This document shows, in pieces, positions 3,923-13,858 of a stretch of 40,070 bases of DNA. The notes beneath the pieces were generated by a model that was given only the letters and a program-made list of their open reading frames with translations, searched no databases and was not told the origin of the DNA. The stretch spans positions 1-40,070 of IMG/VR virus record IMGVR_UViG_3300044641_010277, one strand, 5' to 3'. A program made the position numbers and the translations under genes. Source of the DNA: a virus. Each line of letters opens with the position of its first letter. Position 1 is the stretch's first letter.

Positions 3923-5089
3923 CTAACCTGCCTCCTGATTTAGTATTAACTGGCATACTCCAGTATATTTTGCCAATGATTTTTGGTAATTCTTTTCGTG
4001 CAACACATATAAACAGTTTGATTGAGGCTTTCTGAGTTTGATTACTCCATCTGCAACCGAACAAAGATCAAAAAACCTCTTTGAGTTTACCGTGAAGAAA
4101 GGGAACTCTCCGTTTACGTTTTCAGCCCTGCAACAGTCTGAAGCTGTTTTTTTAGAAACGAAAGAACAAGCTAGCATTGACAGATTCTGTCCTTCTTCGC
4201 TACTGGTTAGGCTTACTAACAGATTCTTGTTGTCTTCGTTTTTTGTGCAAGTAGACACTCTTTCTAATGACTTTTGAATAGCTCCTGAGTTCACTTCTAA
4301 ATCTGCAATGAAGCTTTCTTTTTTCATTTTGTTCTTTATTGATGCAGTGTTTAGCTCTACCGACCTAAAGGATGCCCAAATATGATCTTGCTCAAAAACT
4401 ACGAGATTAGATGGAAGGTGTGAAGCTGGAAATTTAAAGTTTATAGGCCTTGTGTGATCAAACTTTATTTTCAGAAGTGCAGAACAGGCGTAAGGTGGAA
4501 TCATGGTCTGCCTGATATCTCCAACTTCGTCTTCTTCAGTAATCTCAACAACTAAAGCTGAAATTCCATCTATTCCAGTTAGGTATACTTTTCCGTTCTC
4601 TGCCTCTAAATAAACTCCAGAAGCATCTGCTCCAGGAGGTCTTTCCTTTGATGCAAACTTTAAACAAGACTCAATCCCCTGAATCAATGGTCCGGCCAGT
4701 AACTCTTCGCATTCAGTTCTGACTTTCCAGTAATTTGAATCCATAAAATCAGAGGCTGGAAATATTGGAAAACTTTGGCTAGATCCTTTTACTGAGGCTT
4801 TAAAGAATCCATTGTTAAGATCGAACTTTATGACTCCTTCCAACAGTTTCACATAGTCTAGTAGTTCATGGGCAGAGAAGAGAAAGTCAAAGTTTGTCAT
4901 TGGCTTAGCTATCTCTGACAGATCAATTTCTATCATCGATTCAGTATCTGTTCCGCTAAGCTTTAATTTTCCATCTTTGCTGGTTATTTTTGCCTGAGTA
5001 AATGAAACTATTGTGCTTTTCCTGGGAACAACTGAACAAATCATAGTTAAGCACTTTGTAAAGAAGTTAGATTCGCAACAAAAGATCAT
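3923..5089 (-). CDS. dnaN: DNA polymerase III beta subunit (sliding clamp)
   Basis: 388 aa, close to the usual 365-390 residues of bacterial beta clamps. The N-terminus aligns with the family pattern: a short strand, then RKSTIVSFTQAKI and GKLKLSGTDTESMIEIDL, matching the conserved LSLTGTDLE region. Three repeated clamp domains of about 125 residues are plausible, although sequence conservation fades toward the C-terminus. The ring-shaped dimer would encircle DNA and tether a polymerase, MutS-like or nuclease partner. The gene overlaps the upstream ERCC4 nuclease by four bases. No polymerase is visible in the window, so a host polymerase III is the probable client. Phage-encoded clamps of bacterial type are uncommon. 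Confidence 0.85.
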   Translation of the reverse strand: MIFCCESNFFTKCLTMICSVVPRKSTIVSFTQAKITSKDGKLKLSGTDTESMIEIDLSEIAKPMTNFDFLFSAHELLDYVKLLEGVIKFDLNNGFFKASVKGSSQSFPIFPASDFMDSNYWKVRTECEELLAGPLIQGIESCLKFASKERPPGADASGVYLEAENGKVYLTGIDGISALVVEITEEDEVGDIRQTMIPPYACSALLKIKFDHTRPINFKFPASHLPSNLVVFEQDHIWASFRSVELNTASIKNKMKKESFIADLEVNSGAIQKSLERVSTCTKNEDNKNLLVSLTSSEEGQNLSMLACSFVSKKTASDCCRAENVNGEFPFFTVNSKRFFDLCSVADGVIKLRKPQSNCLYVLHEKNYQKSLAKYTGVCQLILNQEAG

Positions 5090-5736
5090 TTGAAAAACTC
5101 CAATATTCTTTTTGATTTTTTTGGACCTATCTTATCAATCTTCTCTAGTCCTCCATTAAGAACTTCTGGGATCAAATCAAATGGAAGCCTTCCATACTCT
5201 TCGAGAATCCTCTCCGCAGTAGTTGCTCCGACACCAGGAATCCCCTGAAGAAAGTGAAGCTTCCAAGCAGTGTCATCTGCCTCTCTTCCTGGTCCTGGCC
5301 TTGTTGATAATCCTGTGTGACAAGATTTGTCGCACCAGGAAAAAAAAGAAACTATTGATGTTATTGTCTCTTCTTTTCTATCTGTCCAAAGGTATGGAAT
5401 TTTGTGTGTGATCTGTATTGATAAAAGAATTCCCAAAAGCTGAACTCTAGAAAATCCTCCTAGTCTTGGATTTGCCAGATTGCCTTCAGAAGTCCAAACC
5501 CCTCTGCCCTCAAGTATTAGTAAACAGTTTGGTATTGATAGCATCATTGGCAATTCCCTATGAAGTCTTCCATCTCTAACAGATGAGAGAAAATCTTCTG
5601 GAAATTGTTTCCGCTGAACTCCTGCTAATCCGCTAGATGTTGGGCAGAGAAAGTCTACTCCGTATTGCTCAGGTAAAGATGAGGTTTTTCCAATTGCCTG
5701 AAAAACACTTGGTTCAGTTGGAGAAACTAGAATCAT
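5086..5736 (-). CDS. ERCC4-family nuclease with helix-hairpin-helix domain
   Basis: 216 aa with the ATG at 5734-5736, which overlaps the upstream stop as TGATG; a TTG nine bases further upstream is less likely. The N-terminal half carries the ERCC4/XPF signature as GVQRK at about 39-43 followed by an acidic residue near 48 (consensus VERKxxxD), so the first acidic position is Gln. The C-terminal 55 residues contain two helix-hairpin-helix motifs (IPGVGATTAERIL and IDKIGPKKSKRIL), as in XPF/Mus81 proteins that cut branched or flap DNA. It lies between the Sak4-like ATPase and the clamp, consistent with processing recombination or replication intermediates. Confidence 0.82.
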   Translation of the reverse strand: MILVSPTEPSVFQAIGKTSSLPEQYGVDFLCPTSSGLAGVQRKQFPEDFLSSVRDGRLHRELPMMLSIPNCLLILEGRGVWTSEGNLANPRLGGFSRVQLLGILLSIQITHKIPYLWTDRKEETITSIVSFFSWCDKSCHTGLSTRPGPGREADDTAWKLHFLQGIPGVGATTAERILEEYGRLPFDLIPEVLNGGLEKIDKIGPKKSKRILEFFK

Positions 5737-6572
5737 CAATGACAATTCCAGCCTGCTATTCTCATTAAGTAGTCATTTGCAAAGCCTCCTAAAACCACTT
5801 GGTTACCGTTTTGATCTACTCCAAAAAACTCTGAAACCTGGCAATCAATCTGAACCCTGCCTCTGTCTTTCACTGTTCGCATCCAATATTTTCGATCTCT
5901 TCCCTCTTTTTTCTGCTGCATAAAAATCACAGTATGGACATCATGATCTGTATCTTTATATCCTGAAGGCTTAAATCCAACCCTGCCATATTTTGTCACT
6001 ATGCTTTCACTGTCTAATTTATCGTTAACGGGTGAGGCAGTTGAACAGATTATTACATTAGCTCCAAGTTTGAAGAAGATTTTTTGGGCTAATGTTTTAT
6101 ATAGCTTTTTGATGATTGTCCAATCTTTAAGCCCATCGAATGGATTGACTTTTTTAGAGCCAGAACTTGCCAGGTTCTCTCGCATCTCCAGAAAGAAGTC
6201 ATCGATGCCCTTGTGAAAAACCTTCTCTGTATAATGCTCTTGCGCCCAATCCCAAAGTTTACAGAAAAGATCTATCACTAAAAAGTCCCCCCTCTCTGGC
6301 TTGATTAGTGACGAAATTTTATCTAGAGCTTTATCCGCTTCTAACCAGGATGAAACCTCGAAGATGTCAATATTTGTCAACCAAGGAAAAGCAGTTTGAA
6401 GTGTTCTTTCCGAACCGCAATCTGTATCAACAAAAAAGAATCTTGCTGGCTTTCCTAATTGCTGAGAAACTGCTGCAACCGTAAAAGTTGAGTAGCTTTT
6501 CCCATCTCCCGCTTGTCCATAAAGCATAATTCTTTCTTGCAGCTTTCTTTTTATTACAGGTAAATTATTCAC
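5736..6572 (-). CDS. RecA-fold ATPase, Sak4-like recombination protein
   Basis: 278 aa. Walker A is GQAGDGKS at 19-26 and Walker B is DFLVID ending at Asp101. FFFVDTDCGSER (45-56) resembles the strand-loop after Walker A in phage RecA-like AAA proteins (Sak4 group), which promote single-strand annealing or exchange together with an SSB. Start is a GTG (6570-6572) with AGGT five bases upstream, overlapping the previous gene. Neighbours (exonuclease, ERCC4 nuclease, clamp) support a recombination or replication-fork role. A terminase or helicase loader function is less likely given the context. Confidence 0.8.
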   Translation of the reverse strand: MNNLPVIKRKLQERIMLYGQAGDGKSYSTFTVAAVSQQLGKPARFFFVDTDCGSERTLQTAFPWLTNIDIFEVSSWLEADKALDKISSLIKPERGDFLVIDLFCKLWDWAQEHYTEKVFHKGIDDFFLEMRENLASSGSKKVNPFDGLKDWTIIKKLYKTLAQKIFFKLGANVIICSTASPVNDKLDSESIVTKYGRVGFKPSGYKDTDHDVHTVIFMQQKKEGRDRKYWMRTVKDRGRVQIDCQVSEFFGVDQNGNQVVLGGFANDYLMRIAGWNCH

Positions 6573-6900
6573 TGCCTACCTCGCCTACCTCTTCTTCTGT
6601 TCTCTCGGTAACTTTGAATAATTCTGCTATAGATTCCGTTATTTCTGGTGGAACCAATCCTGGGCAGATAACCCCATTATCATACAACCACCTAGCAGAT
6701 CTCTTCTCTTCCTCCGTAGCCATATAACCTGGGTTTTGATTTGCCTTTTGAGCCAATGCTCCAACAAGCAAAGAGCAAGCTACCAGATGATGCATAATGT
6801 TAGTTACTTCTGTTCTTTTTATTGGATCCTGAGCTTTTCTCATATCTTGCCAGTTTGCTTTTTGTTTTCTCTTCCCTGATTTCTTTAGTTTCTTTTTCAT
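6565..6900 (-). CDS. Hypothetical protein (111 aa), basic N-terminus, acidic C-terminus
   Basis: The ATG at 6898-6900 follows GAGGAG by eight bases and is preferred over a GTG nine bases upstream. The first 25 residues are strongly basic (MKKKLKKSGKRKQK), the middle is helical with a conserved-looking MHHLVACSLLVGALAQ, and the last 30 residues are acidic. It precedes and slightly overlaps the Sak4-like ATPase. No family recognised; charge distribution suggests a small nucleic-acid-binding or accessory protein. Confidence 0.7.
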   Translation of the reverse strand: MKKKLKKSGKRKQKANWQDMRKAQDPIKRTEVTNIMHHLVACSLLVGALAQKANQNPGYMATEEEKRSARWLYDNGVICPGLVPPEITESIAELFKVTERTEEEVGEVGSE

Positions 6901-7012
6901 TTTTATCACTCCTCAAAATATGTCTTCTCATAGCTGCAGCAGAGTATCCAAATCCACATTCAGGATCATTGCATTCTGCGTCTTCGTCAAACCATTGTCT
7001 AACCGTAGGCAC
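6800..7012 (-). CDS. Small protein with cysteine/histidine motif, overlapping the next gene
   Basis: 70 aa. GTG start directly abuts the TAA of the methyltransferase-like gene (TAAGTG). Residues about 14-34 read CNDPECGFGYSAAAMRRH, a possible short zinc-binding site, and occupy DNA not used by any other gene. The C-terminal 33 residues are lysine/glutamate-rich and are read out of frame over the first 101 bases of the following gene. The N-terminal half looks genuine; the overlapping tail could be real or incidental. Confidence 0.5.
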   Translation of the reverse strand: MPTVRQWFDEDAECNDPECGFGYSAAAMRRHILRSDKNEKETKEIREEKTKSKLARYEKSSGSNKKNRSN

Positions 7013-7606
7013 TTAGCCCTTCCACCTTTCTTCTTTTGCAGTGTAGTTTAGGATTTGTATTTTTCCAGTGTCTCTAATTATCTCGTTATCCCAAACAAAC
7101 CAGGCGTAACAAGCTGAATCAGTTCCAAGTCCATCAAAGCTTGGCCTGTTTGGTAGTATGTAAACATCTGCCATTCCAACTTCTTCCCAGAAAGACTTTC
7201 GTTTTTCGCTCTCAAGGAAACCAACCCTTAAAAGCATAGCTATTTGTATTTTTTGATAATTGAAGAAGTGATGCCTTATTATCTCTTCTGCTTCTAGGTA
7301 TGGAGGATTGGTTATCGATGCAGAAATGCCTTGAACAACAATGCTTTTACAATCTGTCAAACGATTAAATGACCACAAGTTAGAGGATATGTCCAAATGA
7401 GGACTCTTGTCATCTATATCAATTGCTACCCAGACTCTATTCTCAAACTCATTGAAAGCTCTTATTATGTTGCCTTCTCCCGCGCAAGGCTCAAGCAATA
7501 TTCCTGGTTTTGGTCTCCACTTTTCAAACAGTCTCCTAGCGCACCAAACAGGCGTAGGGTAATTATCGTTTAAAGATCTCTTTGATCTTGCTCCTGCGTT
7601 ACTCAT
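7013..7606 (-). CDS. Class I SAM-dependent DNA methyltransferase-like protein
   Basis: 197 aa. LLEPCAGEGNI at about 37-47 is the SAM-binding motif I, and ITNPPY at 98-103 is the catalytic (D/N)PPY motif of N6-adenine or N4-cytosine methyltransferases. YPTP near residue 16 is typical of phage-type enzymes of this size. No target-recognition domain is obvious, so substrate is unknown. It starts at an ATG with a strong AGGAGG seven bases upstream. Likely role: protecting phage DNA from restriction or marking it, inferred from the family. No cognate restriction gene is nearby. Confidence 0.75.
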   Translation of the reverse strand: MSNAGARSKRSLNDNYPTPVWCARRLFEKWRPKPGILLEPCAGEGNIIRAFNEFENRVWVAIDIDDKSPHLDISSNLWSFNRLTDCKSIVVQGISASITNPPYLEAEEIIRHHFFNYQKIQIAMLLRVGFLESEKRKSFWEEVGMADVYILPNRPSFDGLGTDSACYAWFVWDNEIIRDTGKIQILNYTAKEERWKG

Positions 7607-7626
7607 TTTTTTACCTCCTATTTTCT

Positions 7627-7830
7627 TTAGTCAGTGTCAAAAATTGACATTATTATGTTTGATAGTTTTATTCCATCTTCTTTACTGAGTTCACAAGGTA
7701 TCTCAACTTTGATTTCTTGGTTCTTGCCAAGAAAGATTACATGGCATCTCCTAAAGTTTTCATTGATAAATACATCGAAACCTGGAATTTCACTTGATGA
7801 AGTCTCTTTATCCTTGTCTACTATCTTCAT
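7627..7830 (-). CDS. Hypothetical small acidic protein (67 aa)
   Basis: Unrecognised. Predicted beta strands (FDVFINENFRRCHVIFLG and EIKVEIPCEL) followed by a short helix suggest a compact fold. The ATG overlaps the stop of the exonuclease gene by four bases, so the two are translationally coupled; it may be an accessory partner of the exonuclease. Confidence 0.65.
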   Translation of the reverse strand: MKIVDKDKETSSSEIPGFDVFINENFRRCHVIFLGKNQEIKVEIPCELSKEDGIKLSNIIMSIFDTD

Positions 7831-8855
7831 TTCTTCTCCCTGTAATCAATTCTCATATGAGTTCCCTGAGTTTTATACTGTTCTTCCAGTTTAGCGATCT
7901 CAGGGTAGTCTCTTTTTAATGCAGTTCTATCGATTGCAGGTGGAGAGTTTTGAGTTCTTATAGTGTATCTTCCGCACCTAACTTTCTCGTGTTCTGAGTT
8001 CTTATGGAACTGTTCTAGGGCTGATTTTATCCGTTTCTGCTCTTCGCACAGGTTGCCAATCTCTGTCCCTAACTGCCTGTTTCTATCAAGCAGGTTAATG
8101 ATTTGTTGACCCTGGTCCGAGGCTTCATCTAGCTCTAGGATCTTGTTTTCGTTCTTGTCTTCTTCGTGCAAGTCTTCAAATAAGCAAGGAAATTTCTGCT
8201 TCGAAGACTCAAAGCACACTAATTTCTCTCCATTTTTAGACTTGTTTATTAACTCCATAACAAGACTAGTTTTCTCTGTTATTCGGCCAACTACAGATGG
8301 ATCATGGTCGAATATTTGAATGTTAAGCCTAAGATCTTCTTTGCATTGGCAGGCCATAGCTATCTTTATGCCAGATCCTGTCTCAGAGTAACTCATATAT
8401 CCGTTTAGATAATGAGTGTAGAGATCTACTTGGTCTCTATAATTCTTGAACTCGTCCAACCCGGAAGAAAGGAATAGATCATAACTAGGTCCATACATTG
8501 ATTTAACTTCTAGCAAGCAAGGTCCTAAAACAACATTTTCCAAACCGAACTTTGGAATCGATGGGATACCCAGAAGTATCCCGTCTATATGACCCCTAAC
8601 CGTGCAACCGTTTTTCAGCGGTATGCTCACTTCCAATTGATCGCAGATTGGTCTAGCCCCCTCTCTGGCTAACCTATCTTTCACAATTAGTTCGTGCTCG
8701 TGTCCTAACTCAAAAGCTTTTAGAGTCCTGTGAGAGTGTTCCTCAATTCTTCCTAGAGCGATTGCAGCTAGTTTTACTGGACAAGATCCAATAGATGAGG
8801 CTCTAAAAATCCATCTTCCATCTTCAAAATAAACAGCAGGCCTGTTGTCTGACAT
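7827..8855 (-). CDS. PD-(D/E)XK exonuclease (RecB/Cas4-like phage recombination nuclease)
   Basis: 342 aa. The RecB-family motifs are visible in order: SSIGSC near 20-25, LGHEHE (His52), GHIDG (Asp91), LLEVKS (Glu116, Lys118) and QVDLYTHYL (Gln142, Tyr146). Such nucleases resect double-strand ends to feed a single-strand annealing or strand-exchange protein. The region after about residue 250 is coiled coil (the LLDRNRQLGTEIGNL region) and is an unusual extension. Cys25 and later cysteines (about 210-225) raise a Fe-S cluster as in Cas4/AddB, but the full four-Cys pattern was not found. The ATG follows GGAGGTAAAAA. A strong terminator lies just upstream. Confidence 0.8.
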   Translation of the reverse strand: MSDNRPAVYFEDGRWIFRASSIGSCPVKLAAIALGRIEEHSHRTLKAFELGHEHELIVKDRLAREGARPICDQLEVSIPLKNGCTVRGHIDGILLGIPSIPKFGLENVVLGPCLLEVKSMYGPSYDLFLSSGLDEFKNYRDQVDLYTHYLNGYMSYSETGSGIKIAMACQCKEDLRLNIQIFDHDPSVVGRITEKTSLVMELINKSKNGEKLVCFESSKQKFPCLFEDLHEEDKNENKILELDEASDQGQQIINLLDRNRQLGTEIGNLCEEQKRIKSALEQFHKNSEHEKVRCGRYTIRTQNSPPAIDRTALKRDYPEIAKLEEQYKTQGTHMRIDYREKK

Positions 8856-8880
8856 TTTTTACCTCCATTTTTACAATTAA

Positions 8881-8914
8881 AAAACAGGGTGCCTGAGATT
8901 AGGCACCCTGTTTT
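8881..8914. terminator. Strong intrinsic terminator, bidirectional
   Basis: Perfect 14-bp inverted repeat: AAAACAGGGTGCCT (8881-8894), loop GAGATT, AGGCACCCTGTTTT (8901-8914). A-runs and T-runs on the outer sides make it work in either direction. On the minus strand it follows the gene ending at 8927, separating it from the exonuclease gene, so upstream genes are probably transcribed at a higher level than those to the left, unless read-through or a new promoter supplies them. Confidence 0.9.
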
Positions 8915-8926
8915 ATTTACTCTACT

Positions 8927-9457
8927 TTATTCGCTCTTCTTCCCCTTTTCAGTCTTCTTGGTGCCTGCATTGGCAGAGGCTTCTGCTGCTTCTCGTGCGG
9001 CTTTACGTGCTGCTTTAGCTGCCCTCTTCTCAGCTAGTTCTTGAGCCTTCTGCAGGCGCAAGGCTTCCTTGTAAGCTCGCCGATCTTCTGGAGACATAGC
9101 TTCGAGTTCAGCTTTTCGCTCCAACTTTGCGTTTACCGAGGCCAAAACTTCTTTATACTCTTTGCAGAAGTATGCTGAACGCCCAATAAAATCAACATCC
9201 TCCTCAGTATTACCGCTTACGTCACGAGTAGAAAGAACCGCAGTTCCGTTCGCAGAAACAGCTAGCAAACTAGAAAGGACTCCGTTTCCGACAATGTTTC
9301 CAGCCTCATCCATACGCGGTTGGATGTTGATGGATGACTTGATTTCGTTAACACCATTTTTGGCAAGAGCAACTGCAAGATCTTTTCGTGAGGCATCATC
9401 CGAAAGATTAAATACCATAGGAATAGACAGAGTTACCAGAAGTTTAGAAGTAGACAT
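8927..9457 (-). CDS. Hypothetical protein with Lys/Ala-rich helical tail, likely abundant
   Basis: 176 aa. The first 110 residues look like a beta-rich domain. From about 110 onward the sequence is highly charged and alanine-rich (KRAAKAARKAAREAAEA) and ends in a lysine-rich tail, reminiscent of histone-H1-like or DNA-coating tails. GGGAG nine bases before the ATG and a strong terminator immediately after suggest high, separate expression. No recognised family; a DNA-associated role is inferred from composition only. Confidence 0.72.
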   Translation of the reverse strand: MSTSKLLVTLSIPMVFNLSDDASRKDLAVALAKNGVNEIKSSINIQPRMDEAGNIVGNGVLSSLLAVSANGTAVLSTRDVSGNTEEDVDFIGRSAYFCKEYKEVLASVNAKLERKAELEAMSPEDRRAYKEALRLQKAQELAEKRAAKAARKAAREAAEASANAGTKKTEKGKKSE

Positions 9458-9522
9458 TATAAATATTCTCCCTTTTTAGCTTTAGCTTTCAGTTTTGGTT
9501 GTTGTTTACTCTTAGAGCATAA

Positions 9523-9538
9523 GGGTAAAAATTTACCC
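9523..9538. promoter_or_regulatory. Short palindrome between two early genes
   Basis: GGGTAAA and TTTACCC separated by two bases form a near-perfect palindrome in the 95-bp gap between the Q-rich protein gene and the next gene. No clear T-tract follows on the minus strand, so an operator is as likely as a weak terminator. Confidence 0.4.
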
Positions 9539-9552
9539 AACTTAATTAAAAT

Positions 9553-10503
9553 TTAAGCCATCTGTTTTAATTCTGCGTATAGTTGACCTGAAATCAGTCC
9601 AGTTGCTAACACAGGATTCGTGAAAATTTCAGGAGCAAAATTTCCAGCCTGAGAAATAAATACCTCATTGGTATTGCTCAATGCCAGGACTCGAAGATTT
9701 TGCTGGCTTACGGGATTGAGATGAGCAACCAATCCTTGAGCTACCTGCTGAGCTTGCCCTGCAACCTGCTGAACCTGCTGAGCTTGCCCTGCAACCTGGC
9801 CTGCCATCTGATTGACCATCTGGCCTGCAACCTGGCCAAAATTGCTCATCATTTGATTTGGGACTTGTCCTGCGAATTGATTCTGTGGCATTGCCATTTG
9901 ATTCTGCATTTGTCCCTGATTTGCCTGCTGATTTAGTTGCTGATTTACCTGATTTACATATTGAACTTGCTGAACCTGCTGAGGACTTTTGCGCCCCAAA
10001 TACTCGACAGGGAAGGCGCGGACTTGCTTACGCACTTTATCCCCTTCCTTGTATTCGAATTCAACAGGCTTCACCTGCCAGCAAGTATCGATCCAGGTTT
10101 CGGCAAGAGTGACATCTTTTGGTAGTAAATCCATAGCACAATTCAAGCCAAACTCTCCCTCTTTAATCTTGTGAATAATGGTTCCGATAGTTGAGCTTAC
10201 GTGATAACTCTTTTTTCCGTTAGGGAACTGAACTCTGGAGCCATTGTCCATAGCCTCAGCATCTTTGCCCAAAGACCAATACTGTTTAATTTCTTCTCCG
10301 TTCTCCAAGTTTTGACCAATGAGTTTTAGGATCACAGTTTGGCCCTTGTTATAGTTAGCGTCAGTTGTAAAATAAGCCTCAGTGAAATGAACTTTAAAGT
10401 CCATATTTCCACCGAAATCAAGCTCGGTAGACTCATGAGCAACTACCTCCTTTTCGATTTGCTCTTTGATCAATTTTGCTTCTTCTGGAGTAATCTGGAA
10501 CAT
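9553..10503 (-). CDS. Putative single-stranded-DNA-binding-type protein with Q/N-rich linker
   Basis: 316 aa. Residues 1-165 look like a folded, beta-rich domain; residues about 185-275 are a low-complexity Q, N, V, A, G, M region built of repeats such as QVAGQAQQV; the last 45 residues look folded again. A folded domain plus a Q-rich disordered linker next to a helicase, exonuclease and Sak4-like ATPase fits an SSB-like protein, but no OB-fold signature is certain and there is no acidic C-terminal tip. Residues 12-33 (IKEQI...EV.AHEST.L..G.N) closely match the N-terminus of the ribbon-helix-helix protein at 12929. Start context is weak (AGAAAG). Confidence 0.6.
   Translation of the reverse strand: MFQITPEEAKLIKEQIEKEVVAHESTELDFGGNMDFKVHFTEAYFTTDANYNKGQTVILKLIGQNLENGEEIKQYWSLGKDAEAMDNGSRVQFPNGKKSYHVSSTIGTIIHKIKEGEFGLNCAMDLLPKDVTLAETWIDTCWQVKPVEFEYKEGDKVRKQVRAFPVEYLGRKSPQQVQQVQYVNQVNQQLNQQANQGQMQNQMAMPQNQFAGQVPNQMMSNFGQVAGQMVNQMAGQVAGQAQQVQQVAGQAQQVAQGLVAHLNPVSQQNLRVLALSNTNEVFISQAGNFAPEIFTNPVLATGLISGQLYAELKQMA
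9743..9798. repeat. Tandem 30-bp repeat in the Q-rich coding region
   Basis: ACCTGCTGAGCTTGCCCTGC plus AACCTG occurs at 9743-9768 and again at 9773-9798, a 30-bp period with 26 identical bases. It encodes QVAGQAQQV-type repeats in the disordered linker. Expansion by slippage or unequal recombination is likely; this is not a CRISPR array, as the frame stays open and the units are in-frame amino-acid repeats. Confidence 0.8.
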
Positions 10504-10590
10504 GTCTAGACTTTCTTTCTGCGTTTTTACGTGATGCCCACATAAAGCGATTACTCAAAATCACTGACAATAAGCTCCAATACGGAAAGA

Positions 10591-12927
10591 CTAGCTAGTA
10601 TCAATTCCGTTTAAAGCGATTGGGTCTCTATTGTCAAACACTAAGCCGTTAATAAACCAACGAGGCATAAAGTGTGACATTTCTTTGTATAATCTTAAGA
10701 ACTGTTCGTCTATGATAAATGTTCGACACCAGTCTTCCCTATGTCGCATTCCTCTTCCTGTCATTTGAATGATTGTGCGTAGAGTATTTGCCCGATACCA
10801 GACTTCCCCGTCTCGTTTTGTTGGTTGTCTGCTGCGCCTAGAGATCTGTTTGTCTCCAAGCGAAGGAAACGGAATTTTTGGAATAACAACAATGCGACAC
10901 AAGTCATCTTTCAAATTGACTCCTCTGTCCATACTTGGAGCCAGCAGGATGCCATCTTTTGTCTTCCTGAGTTCGTCGATAGCCAGATCTCTTTCACTTG
11001 CTTGAGTGTATGATATAGAGCTTAGTAAGTTGTCTGCAAAAAAGTCTTGTAAATATCTAGTCAATTCGTAAGAAACAGTATGAATCAACATTCTTCCTGG
11101 GTAATTCTGGCGAATCCTTAAACACTCTTTAGCAATAACAGGCATACTCGTATCCTTGTTTTTGTAGGTCATCGATGCAACTGGCTTAACAAAAACAGGC
11201 CTTCTCTCTGCTGGAAAGTTACTCTCAATGCGAATGAATTCAAAGTCTTTTAGACCAATATTATCGGCAAACTCTTCTGGACTAAGGACAGTTCCCGACA
11301 TCACTATATTGATTATTGAGTGTTTGAATAAGTATTTTTCTCCGTATTTACCAACACGAACAGGACGGAAAATCACTGACTTATCTTTAATTTCGTAAAC
11401 CCAAGGCTCTTGATCTTCTGCAGTATTGTCGGAGAGCTTTTCAATGTCTGACTTAACGTCATCAATTTTTATGAGTGTCTCTTTACAAGTCTTCAGAAAT
11501 GGATCTTCATCCTCATCTGACTCTATACAGTCTTCCGTTTCCTCTCGTATGTATTCCCTGATTTTCTCGTAAAGTTGAGACAACCAGGCAGTTCTTTTTG
11601 ACCAACGAGAGTGAGAGGATGGAGGAGTCTCTTTGAAAAATTCAAGAATTTTAGGTCCAATAGTTAGCTCAATAAATCCCATCAAAGCTTTTTCAAGTTC
11701 GTCGGCTTCGTCAAAAATTGACACTCCACGGTTTGCAAATCCCTCAGAAATCTTTAGGTTAGGATTAAATCCTAGGCTTCCAGCATAGTTGTCATTTCCT
11801 GCTGCTCCAAAGTGATTTGCTGTTAGGAAATATTGAGTATTGAGAACCGCGCAATCAGAAGCCTGAGCTATTTTTTTGGCTTTTACATAAGGGCACTTTC
11901 TCTTGCTTGATTCAGCAATAATTGAGCCATCTTCCCGAACAAATGGGAGACACAAACTGCAACCCTTCCCCTTTTTGTAGTTGCACTTATCGCAAGTAAG
12001 ATAAGAGTCTGCTGCTTTGTAATTATTGCGCCCCTTCAGGATTCTTGAGTCAGAAAAGTCTGAGTGAAACTGTTCTTGTAAAGGCTTTGTTGAGCAAATG
12101 TAGTTTATCCTAGCACCAACCATCTGGCCAACTAGGTAACCGTATAAAGTTTTTCCCATTCCAACAGGACCTTCGAGCAAGATGTTTCGCTTTCCGCCTT
12201 CAATGGCTTCTGCGGTTGCCTGTAGCGCCTGAATCTGTCCCTGGTTTAACTCTGTTGCCCAATCTGGAAGAATTAAGGAACTTAATGGTTTGCAAGTTAT
12301 TTTGCTGAAAACTTGAATCTTTTGATCTCCAAACTGATTTTGATCAAAAGATTTTTCATCAAAGTCTTCTTCCTCTGAAACATCTTTGTTAGTGTCTAAT
12401 ATTGACACTCCATCTTTCTTTACATCAATGCTGAAGCCCACGAATTCTGAAGAGTATTCCTCTTTCCATTCGTTCAAAAAAAACTCTTCCACAGACTCTG
12501 ACTTTTCTTTAGCTAGAATTTTTATTGTTGCTGGCTCAACTTTTGGAGATTCATCCAAGATCTTAATCTCTAAGGGATTCCAGGTTAGGTCAACCAAGGA
12601 AATTTTAGGAGCTAAGGAAACCTGCTTGCTCTTTCCGATTGCGTTTAAAATTCTCACAGCAATCGAATGGCTACAGTTTGACTTCCTGTAGCCACCTTTG
12701 TTATGGGAGGAACACTCGCAATTGTATCTTCCGCTTTGATCTATAGTAACAAGGTAATCTGAAAACTCATCTCCTAGAGATGGCCTTCCTTTCACTTTAA
12801 AAATCAAATCTGAAACCTCAGAAACATCTTCCAGTCTCTTCTCTGCTCGTTGGATCAAACTATCCTTAATCCAATCAGGTAAACCATAATGAACCGACCA
12901 GGATTCATGCGTCTTTGGTTTTTTCAT
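10591..12927 (-). CDS. SWIM zinc finger fused to a DinG/XPD-like helicase
   Basis: 778 aa, superfamily 2 helicase. N-terminal SWIM zinc finger: Cys70, Cys72, Cys85, His87 (CxCx12CxH). Helicase domain: Walker A GPVGMGKT at 253-260; iron-sulfur cysteines 312, 315, 323, 326 and 345; Walker B as DEAD at 406-409 (XPD/DinG members usually have DEAH); and motif VI QMTGRGMRHR near the C-terminus. DinG/XPD enzymes unwind DNA 5' to 3' and resolve R-loops, D-loops or forks. It follows the ribbon-helix-helix gene by one base, whose last codons supply the GAGG ribosome-binding site, and may be the main replication helicase here. Confidence 0.88.
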   Translation of the reverse strand: MKKPKTHESWSVHYGLPDWIKDSLIQRAEKRLEDVSEVSDLIFKVKGRPSLGDEFSDYLVTIDQSGRYNCECSSHNKGGYRKSNCSHSIAVRILNAIGKSKQVSLAPKISLVDLTWNPLEIKILDESPKVEPATIKILAKEKSESVEEFFLNEWKEEYSSEFVGFSIDVKKDGVSILDTNKDVSEEEDFDEKSFDQNQFGDQKIQVFSKITCKPLSSLILPDWATELNQGQIQALQATAEAIEGGKRNILLEGPVGMGKTLYGYLVGQMVGARINYICSTKPLQEQFHSDFSDSRILKGRNNYKAADSYLTCDKCNYKKGKGCSLCLPFVREDGSIIAESSKRKCPYVKAKKIAQASDCAVLNTQYFLTANHFGAAGNDNYAGSLGFNPNLKISEGFANRGVSIFDEADELEKALMGFIELTIGPKILEFFKETPPSSHSRWSKRTAWLSQLYEKIREYIREETEDCIESDEDEDPFLKTCKETLIKIDDVKSDIEKLSDNTAEDQEPWVYEIKDKSVIFRPVRVGKYGEKYLFKHSIINIVMSGTVLSPEEFADNIGLKDFEFIRIESNFPAERRPVFVKPVASMTYKNKDTSMPVIAKECLRIRQNYPGRMLIHTVSYELTRYLQDFFADNLLSSISYTQASERDLAIDELRKTKDGILLAPSMDRGVNLKDDLCRIVVIPKIPFPSLGDKQISRRSRQPTKRDGEVWYRANTLRTIIQMTGRGMRHREDWCRTFIIDEQFLRLYKEMSHFMPRWFINGLVFDNRDPIALNGIDTS

Positions 12928-12928
12928 T

Positions 12929-13567
12929 TTAATCCTCTTCCTGGAGTAGTGCGGCCTGAGCTTTAGACTTCAGTATTTTCAACTGCTTCAAAAATCTTTT
13001 TCGGTAAGGATCGTTCATTTCGCGAGCATTTTTTTCTAGATACTCAATCAGTGTAAAAGCTTGATTAAAGTCTTTGCGTCTTACCAATGATTTGATCTGT
13101 TTGTTGGCTTTAATCGAAACAGTATCAAAAGCTCTTCCCTCTGACTCGATCTTATCAATCATAGCCTCCGAAAGGTAGGGAGCTAATACGGCAGGATTCA
13201 TGTTGTCTTTATTTTTGAGCAACCAAGCAACCCTTTGAATAATTGCATCTCGAACGAATTCTGAGGTTGTTTTGTAAGCTGGAACTTGCTCTTTAACGTA
13301 TGACAGTAAACCTCCCCAATGCTGAGGGAGCCTTACAGTGATTACACTTGAGTGTCCCTGTTTGTCTTTGCTTGTCGAAAAAACAACTGCAGGATCTATC
13401 TGGTCAACAATTTCCAGGCTTCTCTGTATTTCGGAAGATCTCTCATTGTTGATTGTCCATCTGTTCTTTCCATCTTCCAGTTGTGTGCTCTCGTGCGCTA
13501 TCACTTCTGCAGCGATCTGTTCCTTGATTGTCCTCATTGCAGGCGTAGTTGGTGGGGACTTTTTCAA
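12929..13567 (-). CDS. Ribbon-helix-helix DNA-binding protein, probable regulator/initiator/partition protein
   Basis: 212 aa. Residues 74-118 form a ribbon-helix-helix: strand SVITVRLP, helix WGGLLSYVKEQV, turn, helix TTSEFVRDAIIQRVAWLL. Such dimers (CopG, Arc, omega) bind short tandem repeats. The C-terminal 90 residues are helical and basic. Start is a TTG with AAGGA about nine bases upstream; an ATG at 13535-13537 has none. It is the first gene after the GTAATAC array and heads the replication operon, so it is the obvious candidate to bind the array. Residues 14-35 match the Q-rich protein at 9553. Confidence 0.75.
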   Translation of the reverse strand: MKKSPPTTPAMRTIKEQIAAEVIAHESTQLEDGKNRWTINNERSSEIQRSLEIVDQIDPAVVFSTSKDKQGHSSVITVRLPQHWGGLLSYVKEQVPAYKTTSEFVRDAIIQRVAWLLKNKDNMNPAVLAPYLSEAMIDKIESEGRAFDTVSIKANKQIKSLVRRKDFNQAFTLIEYLEKNAREMNDPYRKRFLKQLKILKSKAQAALLQEED

Positions 13568-13629: not shown

Positions 13630-13858
13630 GGCCTAGGTGACTTGGATAGGTGTAGTTTGTAATACGGTAACACGCAGGTTGTAATACAGTAATACGTATT
13701 ACAATGCTCCTACCAGTCTGTCCTCGTGATACACGTTACTATATAGTATGTGATCACGCTTTTGGCGTATTACTGTATTACATATTACATTTTTGTCATA
13801 CAGCAGTGTAATACAGGCTAGTGTATTACAGGTGCCCTGTATTACAATGGCCTAGGCC
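13630..13858. repeat. Iteron-like array of ten GTAATAC elements with palindromic centre
   Basis: GTAATAC occurs at 13659, 13681, 13689 and 13808; its complement GTATTAC at 13696, 13767, 13775, 13823 and 13839; a one-mismatch copy is at 13782. Extended consensus is TGTAATAC(A/G). Units 13681/13689/13696 and 13767/13775/13782 are spaced 7-8 bp, one inverted pair forming GTAATACGTATTAC (13689-13702). Between the clusters lie palindromes TACTATATAGTA (13737-13748) and GTGATCAC (13750-13757). GGCCTAGG flanks both ends (13630-13637, 13849-13856). The layout fits an iteron origin, a partition site or a multi-site operator for the adjacent ribbon-helix-helix protein. Confidence 0.88.

Follow-up and report, generated by a model that had tools for sequence, protein, structure and literature searches.

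A short peptide matched within phages on unrelated proteins of a gene cassette, a likely N-terminal docking arm

In this study, a single IMG/VR virus record of 40,070 bases (hereafter, the window) was compared with relatives of its gene cassette. The same short peptide is carried by several non-homologous proteins of one phage, beyond chance and not at the DNA level, and the peptide pair of the window is one instance of this wider and more interesting pattern. We consider it probable (about 0.7) that the peptide serves as a short docking arm, N-terminal and tending to match within each phage, on a ribbon-helix-helix (RHH)-type protein (R), an OB-fold, SSB-like protein (Q) and, where it has an N-terminal extension, an XPD-like helicase (H). 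From the sharing, the within-phage match, the action at the protein level and the location of the peptide, which are what was observed, we infer docking and its target, and docking appears likely on these sequence comparisons.

In the window, R (12929-13567, minus strand; 212 aa) is an ORF with relatives that was assigned to the RHH type by its sequence pattern, and it has a TTG start, upstream of which GAGAGGAAGG is found. The glutamine-rich Q (9553-10503, minus strand; 316 aa) was characterised from its ORF, its relatives and a structural model. Sequence comparison aligned residues 14-35 of R (IKEQIAAEVIAHESTQLEDGKN; 13463-13528, minus strand) with residues 12-33 of Q (IKEQIEKEVVAHESTELDFGGN; 10405-10470, minus strand). 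An earlier note on this DNA, made from the letters alone, had pointed to a peptide common to both N-termini with 14 identical residues; the peptide was found as described, and the count is 15 of 22. In the record, which has 353 ORFs, R and Q were mutual best N-terminal matches (score 76, vs 32-37 for the next best), and none of the 1081 other gene pairs reached the R-Q score, the highest being 39. The match is thus not due to chance.

The gene of H lies between those of R and Q (10591-12927, minus strand). H is an XPD/DinG-like SF2 helicase by its Helicase_C_2 domain (PF13307, E 3.6e-23, score 82.9 vs a cut-off of 25.3) and its Walker A motif, GPVGMGKT, and it matches phrog_2488 (E 1.1e-87). 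The protein starts with MKKPKTHESWSVHYGLPDW, and the residues HES are common to R, H and Q. Residues 6-19 of H (THESWSVHYGLPDW; 12871-12912, minus strand) form a candidate tag, weak alone and supported by the family-level pattern; against the gene pairs of the record, p was 0.016 for H-Q and 0.16 for R-H, and the tag ranked only 6-38 of 353 ORFs. The helicase's own match in the window (THES, to the AHEST core) is weak. The N-terminal region of H also holds a CxC...CxH zinc-finger pattern (12667-12720, minus strand), which we take to be SWIM-like. C70, C72, C85 and H87 are invariant and the pattern is kept in the aligned helicases of the window and of a relative, L011; no SWIM match was obtained for H in Pfam.

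Apart from the peptide, R and Q are unrelated, as had been proposed: an OB-fold-like domain, a glutamine-rich linker and a helical C-terminal domain make up Q, and R combines an RHH-type sequence with helices. AlphaFold2 models of both proteins were built with new alignments. The model of Q has a low-confidence helix at residues 6-18 and disorder at 19-31 (pLDDT under 50), followed by a confident beta domain (residues 36-171; 9991-10398, minus strand). Its best VIA match was PrgE (8s4t_A; Z 6.0, rmsd 5.2 over 103 residues), with many OB proteins below it, and this Z falls short of the value of 8 from which VIA trusts a match. Foldseek returned no match to the beta domain at E<=0.001, and Q had no convincing sequence match in Pfam, PHROG or PDB. 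The glutamine-rich linker (9739-9990, minus strand) has low pLDDT in much of its length and other compositions in relatives; the C-terminal domain (9556-9738, minus strand) is confident in the model and conserved in relatives. In the model of R, a low-confidence helix at 14-24 and a disordered stretch at 25-39 (pLDDT under 50) precede helices at 82-94 and 101-118, with no strand in the monomer. The RHH-like pattern is VITVRLP...SEFVRDAI; the ParD match was weak (7ycv_A, E 0.52), and there was no Pfam RHH match. In both models the tag is a predicted flexible arm ahead of or outside the folded domains, and in Q the flexible segment is predicted to precede the OB domain, as in arms of the PrgE and gp32 kind. 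The earlier note had allowed that the motif might belong to an ordinary shared fold; the models place it outside the folded domains.

Relatives were obtained through the helicase. R, Q, the Sak4-like and the XPF-like proteins, as the queries used, had no match in 50,697 phage records (tblastn), and single-sequence searches of viral contigs with R and Q gave no close relative. With the helicase as the single query sequence, one relative was obtained, L011, which is 34 % identical and shares the gene order of the window. A pattern from the alignment of these two helicases, K[IV]P[FY]P.L.DKQ, retrieved 22 stretches of viral contigs; the tag played no part in this choice. L014 is the contig of L011, and L026 and L034 were left out; L016, L017 and L020 were searched for R and Q, gave no match of note and were also left out. 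Seventeen cassette regions were compared, of which 12 hold R and Q, two (L138 and L151, at contig ends) hold only H and Q, and three (L149, L150 and L152) lack Q and were excluded from the tag tests. H was excluded for L140 and for the split helicases of L141 and L144-L147, which have no N-terminal extension; H of L148 was retained although this helicase also begins near its core. Start codons were assigned by a simple ribosome-binding-site rule, except H of L137 and R of L144 and L148, assigned by hand, and the window, for which the first listed start was used.

The gene order R-H-Q recurs in the relatives, accompanied by a Cas4-like exonuclease, a Sak4-like ATPase and an ERCC4/XPF-like nuclease. 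In the window these are a Cas4/RecB-like exonuclease (7827-8855, minus strand; phrog_1990, E 7e-12), a Sak4-like RecA-fold ATPase (5736-6572, minus strand; phrog_124, E 8e-13) and an ERCC4 (XPF-like) nuclease with helix-hairpin-helix (5086-5745, minus strand; PF02732, E 7.6e-11), all without the tag. The Sak4-like and XPF-like proteins, and the Cas4-like protein with the L011 query, had tblastn matches in 14 of the 15 records compared, the exception being L142, a fragment. The cassette of six genes (5086-13567 in the window), whose products include XPD-, XPF-, Cas4-, Sak4- and OB-like proteins, recurs across L136-L151; no counterpart was found among isolated phage records with the queries used. 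For the window's terminase, portal and capsid genes, no similarity was seen in the other 14 records, some of which are represented by cassette stretches alone. Searching bacterial and archaeal genomes with the helicase alignment confirmed nothing; a helicase DNA pattern gave 84 stretches there, nearly all from methanogens, which are putative chromosomal helicases. In the annotation tables of HF2, vir080 and Tunturi_5, named phages with related helicases, the cassette was not recognised.

In most relatives, the N-termini of R and Q, and often of H, share a peptide of their own that differs from that of the window. The tags of L137 are TSKVGWDPV (R), NTGVGWDPV (Q) and MSKVGWEAV (H), and those of L139 are DDSWSTDDGSG (R), FDSWETGSG (Q) and FDSWAVESST (H). 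L142 has VHPENEV (R), IHPDNEI (H) and VNDENAV (Q), and L143 has SSWEPV (R), SSWEGV (H) and AGWEGV (Q). Pairs were found in L147 (R MPPGFELDDG, Q MPPGFELDSG), L141 (R DPWRM, Q DPWKL) and L151 (H MGSWTTR, Q MGSWDTR). Of the 13 R-Q pairs, those of L145 and L146 have no recognisable common tag and those of L143 and L144 a marginal one. In a loose consensus of the tags, an aromatic residue is followed by T or P, next by S/T-G and by L or Y; the HEST.L form of the window is similar to RESTGL in Q of L151.

The exact AHEST peptide occurs in no relative compared, which is literally the absence from all homologues that the earlier note had held would count against it. That reasoning missed the point, as conservation lies in the sharing and not in the sequence. 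A profile scan of viral contigs for the motif gave 598 pattern matches, 0 of them confirmed, and is a weak test because E 1e-3 is nearly out of reach for a peptide of 26 residues. Of the four matches to the pattern E[VI].AHE[ST]T.L..G, three represent a single unrelated protein in several copies and the fourth is apparently non-coding; the 16 matches of IKEQI..E[VI].A were judged unrelated by context.

Within-phage matching was evaluated by summing the best ungapped scores of own pairs, with hand-cut tag segments, and comparing them with partners shuffled between phages. For R-Q in 13 phages, the sum was 425 vs 225 (sd 26) after shuffling, and 0 of 100,000 shuffles was as high; H-Q in nine phages gave 210 vs 156 (sd 15; p=7e-5), and R-H in seven phages 188 vs 122 (sd 15; p=1.9e-4). 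Without the window, p was 2e-5, 6.6e-4 and 1.3e-3 for R-Q, H-Q and R-H, respectively. Fixed 35-residue N-termini gave z values of 7.3 (R-Q), 3.2 (H-Q) and 4.1 (R-H) against shuffled partners. Residues 41-75 had a slight R-Q signal (p=0.033) and none for H-Q and R-H, and no signal was obtained from residues 81-115, the C-termini, or N- vs C-termini. Own pairs were also compared with pairs of other gene starts from the respective phage, using fixed lengths instead of hand-cut segments; without the window, Fisher's combination gave 1.6e-10 (R-Q), 2.5e-6 (R-H) and 2.2e-4 (H-Q). Phage by phage, p<0.05 was reached for R-Q in 9/13, H-Q in 6/9 and R-H in 4/7 phages. The best of 13 OB partners for R was its own Q in 10 of the 13 phages. 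An ORF-wide contig scan, a test much weaker than the shuffles, placed the partner first for 4/13 R queries and 3/13 Q queries; low ranks of this kind are expected for motifs that span 5-8 residues.

An ORF scan for a fourth carrier covered the whole or nearly whole contig for the window, L136-L139, L141-L143 and L147, 60 of 67 kb for L140, and part of the contig for L144, L148 and L151; L145 and L146 were left out. The three query proteins rank at the top by construction, each tag finding itself, and the scan gave no further candidate firm enough to claim. In L139, QYDTWETVSDI scored 40, above the 31 of R against Q. It lies in a 134-residue minus-strand ORF at 746 of L159 and resembles the L139 tag FDSWETGSG, and on this resemblance the ORF is a possible fourth carrier. 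The other candidates, like this one among noise, were VVGFRTVAAAGLP in L140 (42), NRWETT at a C-terminus in L138 (34) and FDPWQLD in L141 (29); the last was rejected, its relative in L147 being without the tag of that phage.

R, Q and the extended H, which tend to carry matching arms in each virus of this kind, belong to one replication/recombination cassette. All arms would fit one site, whose owner would select matching arms, and arm and site would drift together from virus to virus; a match within phages and drift between them are expected if all arms fit one co-changing site. By analogy, the tag may be an assembly arm that belongs to the SSB and of which its partners carry copies, and such an arm on the helicase and the RHH protein would seat both on the SSB filament. 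R, probably on GTATTAC repeats beside its own gene, would assemble the helicase and SSB there. GTATTAC occurs 16 times in the window vs 1.5 expected, and nine of the 16 are clustered upstream of the RHH gene (13659-13845, without strand), a cluster that probably represents RHH operator or origin repeats, judging from sequence. Seven-base repeats also lie upstream of R in L146 (GTATACA, seven copies) and L141 (GTAACAC, four copies); the remaining R genes of the compared relatives had no comparable cluster.

The receptor could instead be a third protein, namely the Sak4-like ATPase, the XPF-like nuclease, the Cas4-like exonuclease or a host replication factor, a proposal that competes with the SSB-arm form and not with docking as such. 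We hold it to be a substantial possibility, somewhat short of even odds, and by analogy such a receptor, above all the Sak4-like ATPase, is nearly as possible as the SSB arm. The recurrence of each of the three phage proteins in 14 of 15 records agrees with it, as do two precedents: Sak4 of HK620 is described as working with its cognate SSB via the last six residues of the SSB (PMC5928155), and the polymerase of T7 is described as having basic patches on which the helicase tails dock (PMC12593628). However, the ORF scan saw the tag on none of the three proteins, a mirror-tree test singled out no receptor and favours none of them, and a host factor would need to vary between phages. The earlier note had suggested a docking tag for a common partner such as the helicase or clamp, and this is supported in part. 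As a prediction, the protein-level docking tag is well supported by the within-phage matching in relatives. In several relatives the tag is also on the helicase, which is therefore a co-carrier, not simply the partner. The window's DnaN-like sliding clamp (3923-5089; PF00712, E 1.5e-12) had no match in the other 14 records, of which parts only were available for some, and a phage clamp is therefore unlikely as a general partner.

A further extension of the docking arm, which we regard as rather doubtful, is an address code by which the SSB-like protein, helicase and RHH initiator of each virus accept own-code partners only. If true, replication complexes of co-infecting or recombining phages would be kept from mixing, and evolution would be fast, since the code need only match itself.

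A turnover or targeting signal, either an N-terminal degradation tag for a host protease (e.g. ClpXP) or an address to a replication compartment, would agree with a tag that is N-terminal, flexible in the models and present on several proteins of one operon. It is nevertheless improbable, as a host protease motif should be alike across phages, not matched within each.

Codon choice bears on the two remaining explanations. The same codon is used at 3 of the 15 identical R/Q residues in the window (6.3 expected from codon usage, P(3 or fewer)=0.06), which confirms the three counted previously with 15 as the denominator, and at 21 of 69 identical residues over the 13 phages (27.8 expected; Met and Trp omitted). 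Codon agreement is no higher than expected, and selection therefore acts on the peptide, not the DNA, as had been suggested from the window. The DNA similarity between the start regions of R and Q is at or near background in most phages; only L137 and L147 lie clearly beyond the 95 % level of random stretches, and in L147 most differences inside the tag are synonymous. The tags of these two phages retain some DNA identity, which would suit a functionless remnant of a duplication, or of gene conversion, involving the gene starts, yet synonymous positions are at expectation while residues remain identical, and the sharing recurs in phages without structural-gene similarity to the window; this origin seems, if anything, slightly less probable than a turnover signal. 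A nucleic-acid element under the start codons (operator, origin or translational operator), with the peptide as a by-product, would suit the location at gene starts and an RHH protein that probably binds DNA repeats beside its own gene, but it is close to refuted by codon choice, with agreement below expectation over the 13 phages and start-region DNA at background in most.

Docking by terminal peptides is known for SSBs, and the acidic tail of T7 gp2.5 (SSB) uses a polymerase site similar to that of the gp4 helicase tail. To our knowledge, there is no case of three unrelated proteins of one operon with the same peptide, in step within each virus and free between viruses; we know of neither a phage-specific copy of the T4 gp32 arm common to a helicase and an RHH protein nor per-phage matching over three proteins in T7 gp4 and gp2.5. 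The T7 tails are acidic and C-terminal, in contrast to the N-terminal tags described here, and gp4 is described as docking on basic patches of the polymerase by its tail (PMC12593628). The first 12 residues of PrgE, an OB-fold SSB of plasmid pCF10 and the protein nearest in fold to the OB domain of Q, are described as driving oligomerisation, with the N-terminal tail as a major contributor (PMC11137577). PrgE differs from Q in sequence (~9 % identity), Q has an extra linker and C-terminal domain, and the passages of the source covered here (PMC11137577) make no mention of partner proteins that share the PrgE tail. In T4, the N-terminal domain of gp32 is reported to bind the core of the adjacent gp32 (PMC12893549), a likeness in that a phage SSB contacts its neighbour's core by an N-terminal domain; the sequences differ. 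SSB-Ct, a short terminal SSB peptide, is described as recruiting the Sak4 recombinase (HK620, PMC5928155) and the DinG helicase; it is C-terminal, on the SSB and bound by partners, whereas here the partners carry the same peptide N-terminally. In the literature searched, mainly titles and openings of abstracts, nothing was found on an N-terminal peptide common to phage SSB, helicase and RHH proteins, and the per-phage sharing is undescribed as far as this search reaches. Tag sharing would let the partners of a complex be read from sequence alone, would supply natural matched and mismatched pairs for the study of assembly specificity, and would explain cassette specificity across phages whose other genes differ.

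Two further observations concern the helicase genes. In L141, L144, L145, L146, L147, L149 and L150, two ORFs encode the XPD-like helicase, divided at about the same place in each, between its two RecA-like halves; the ORFs overlap by 4 bases in L149, are separated by 6 bases in L150 and have another ORF between them in L145 and L146. These split helicases are without the N-terminal extension and without the tag, and a two-subunit SF2 helicase would be unusual. The annotation of Halorubrum phage HF2 places a predicted type II hammerhead ribozyme (L172:3796-3863) immediately upstream of the gene for its Rad3-related helicase.
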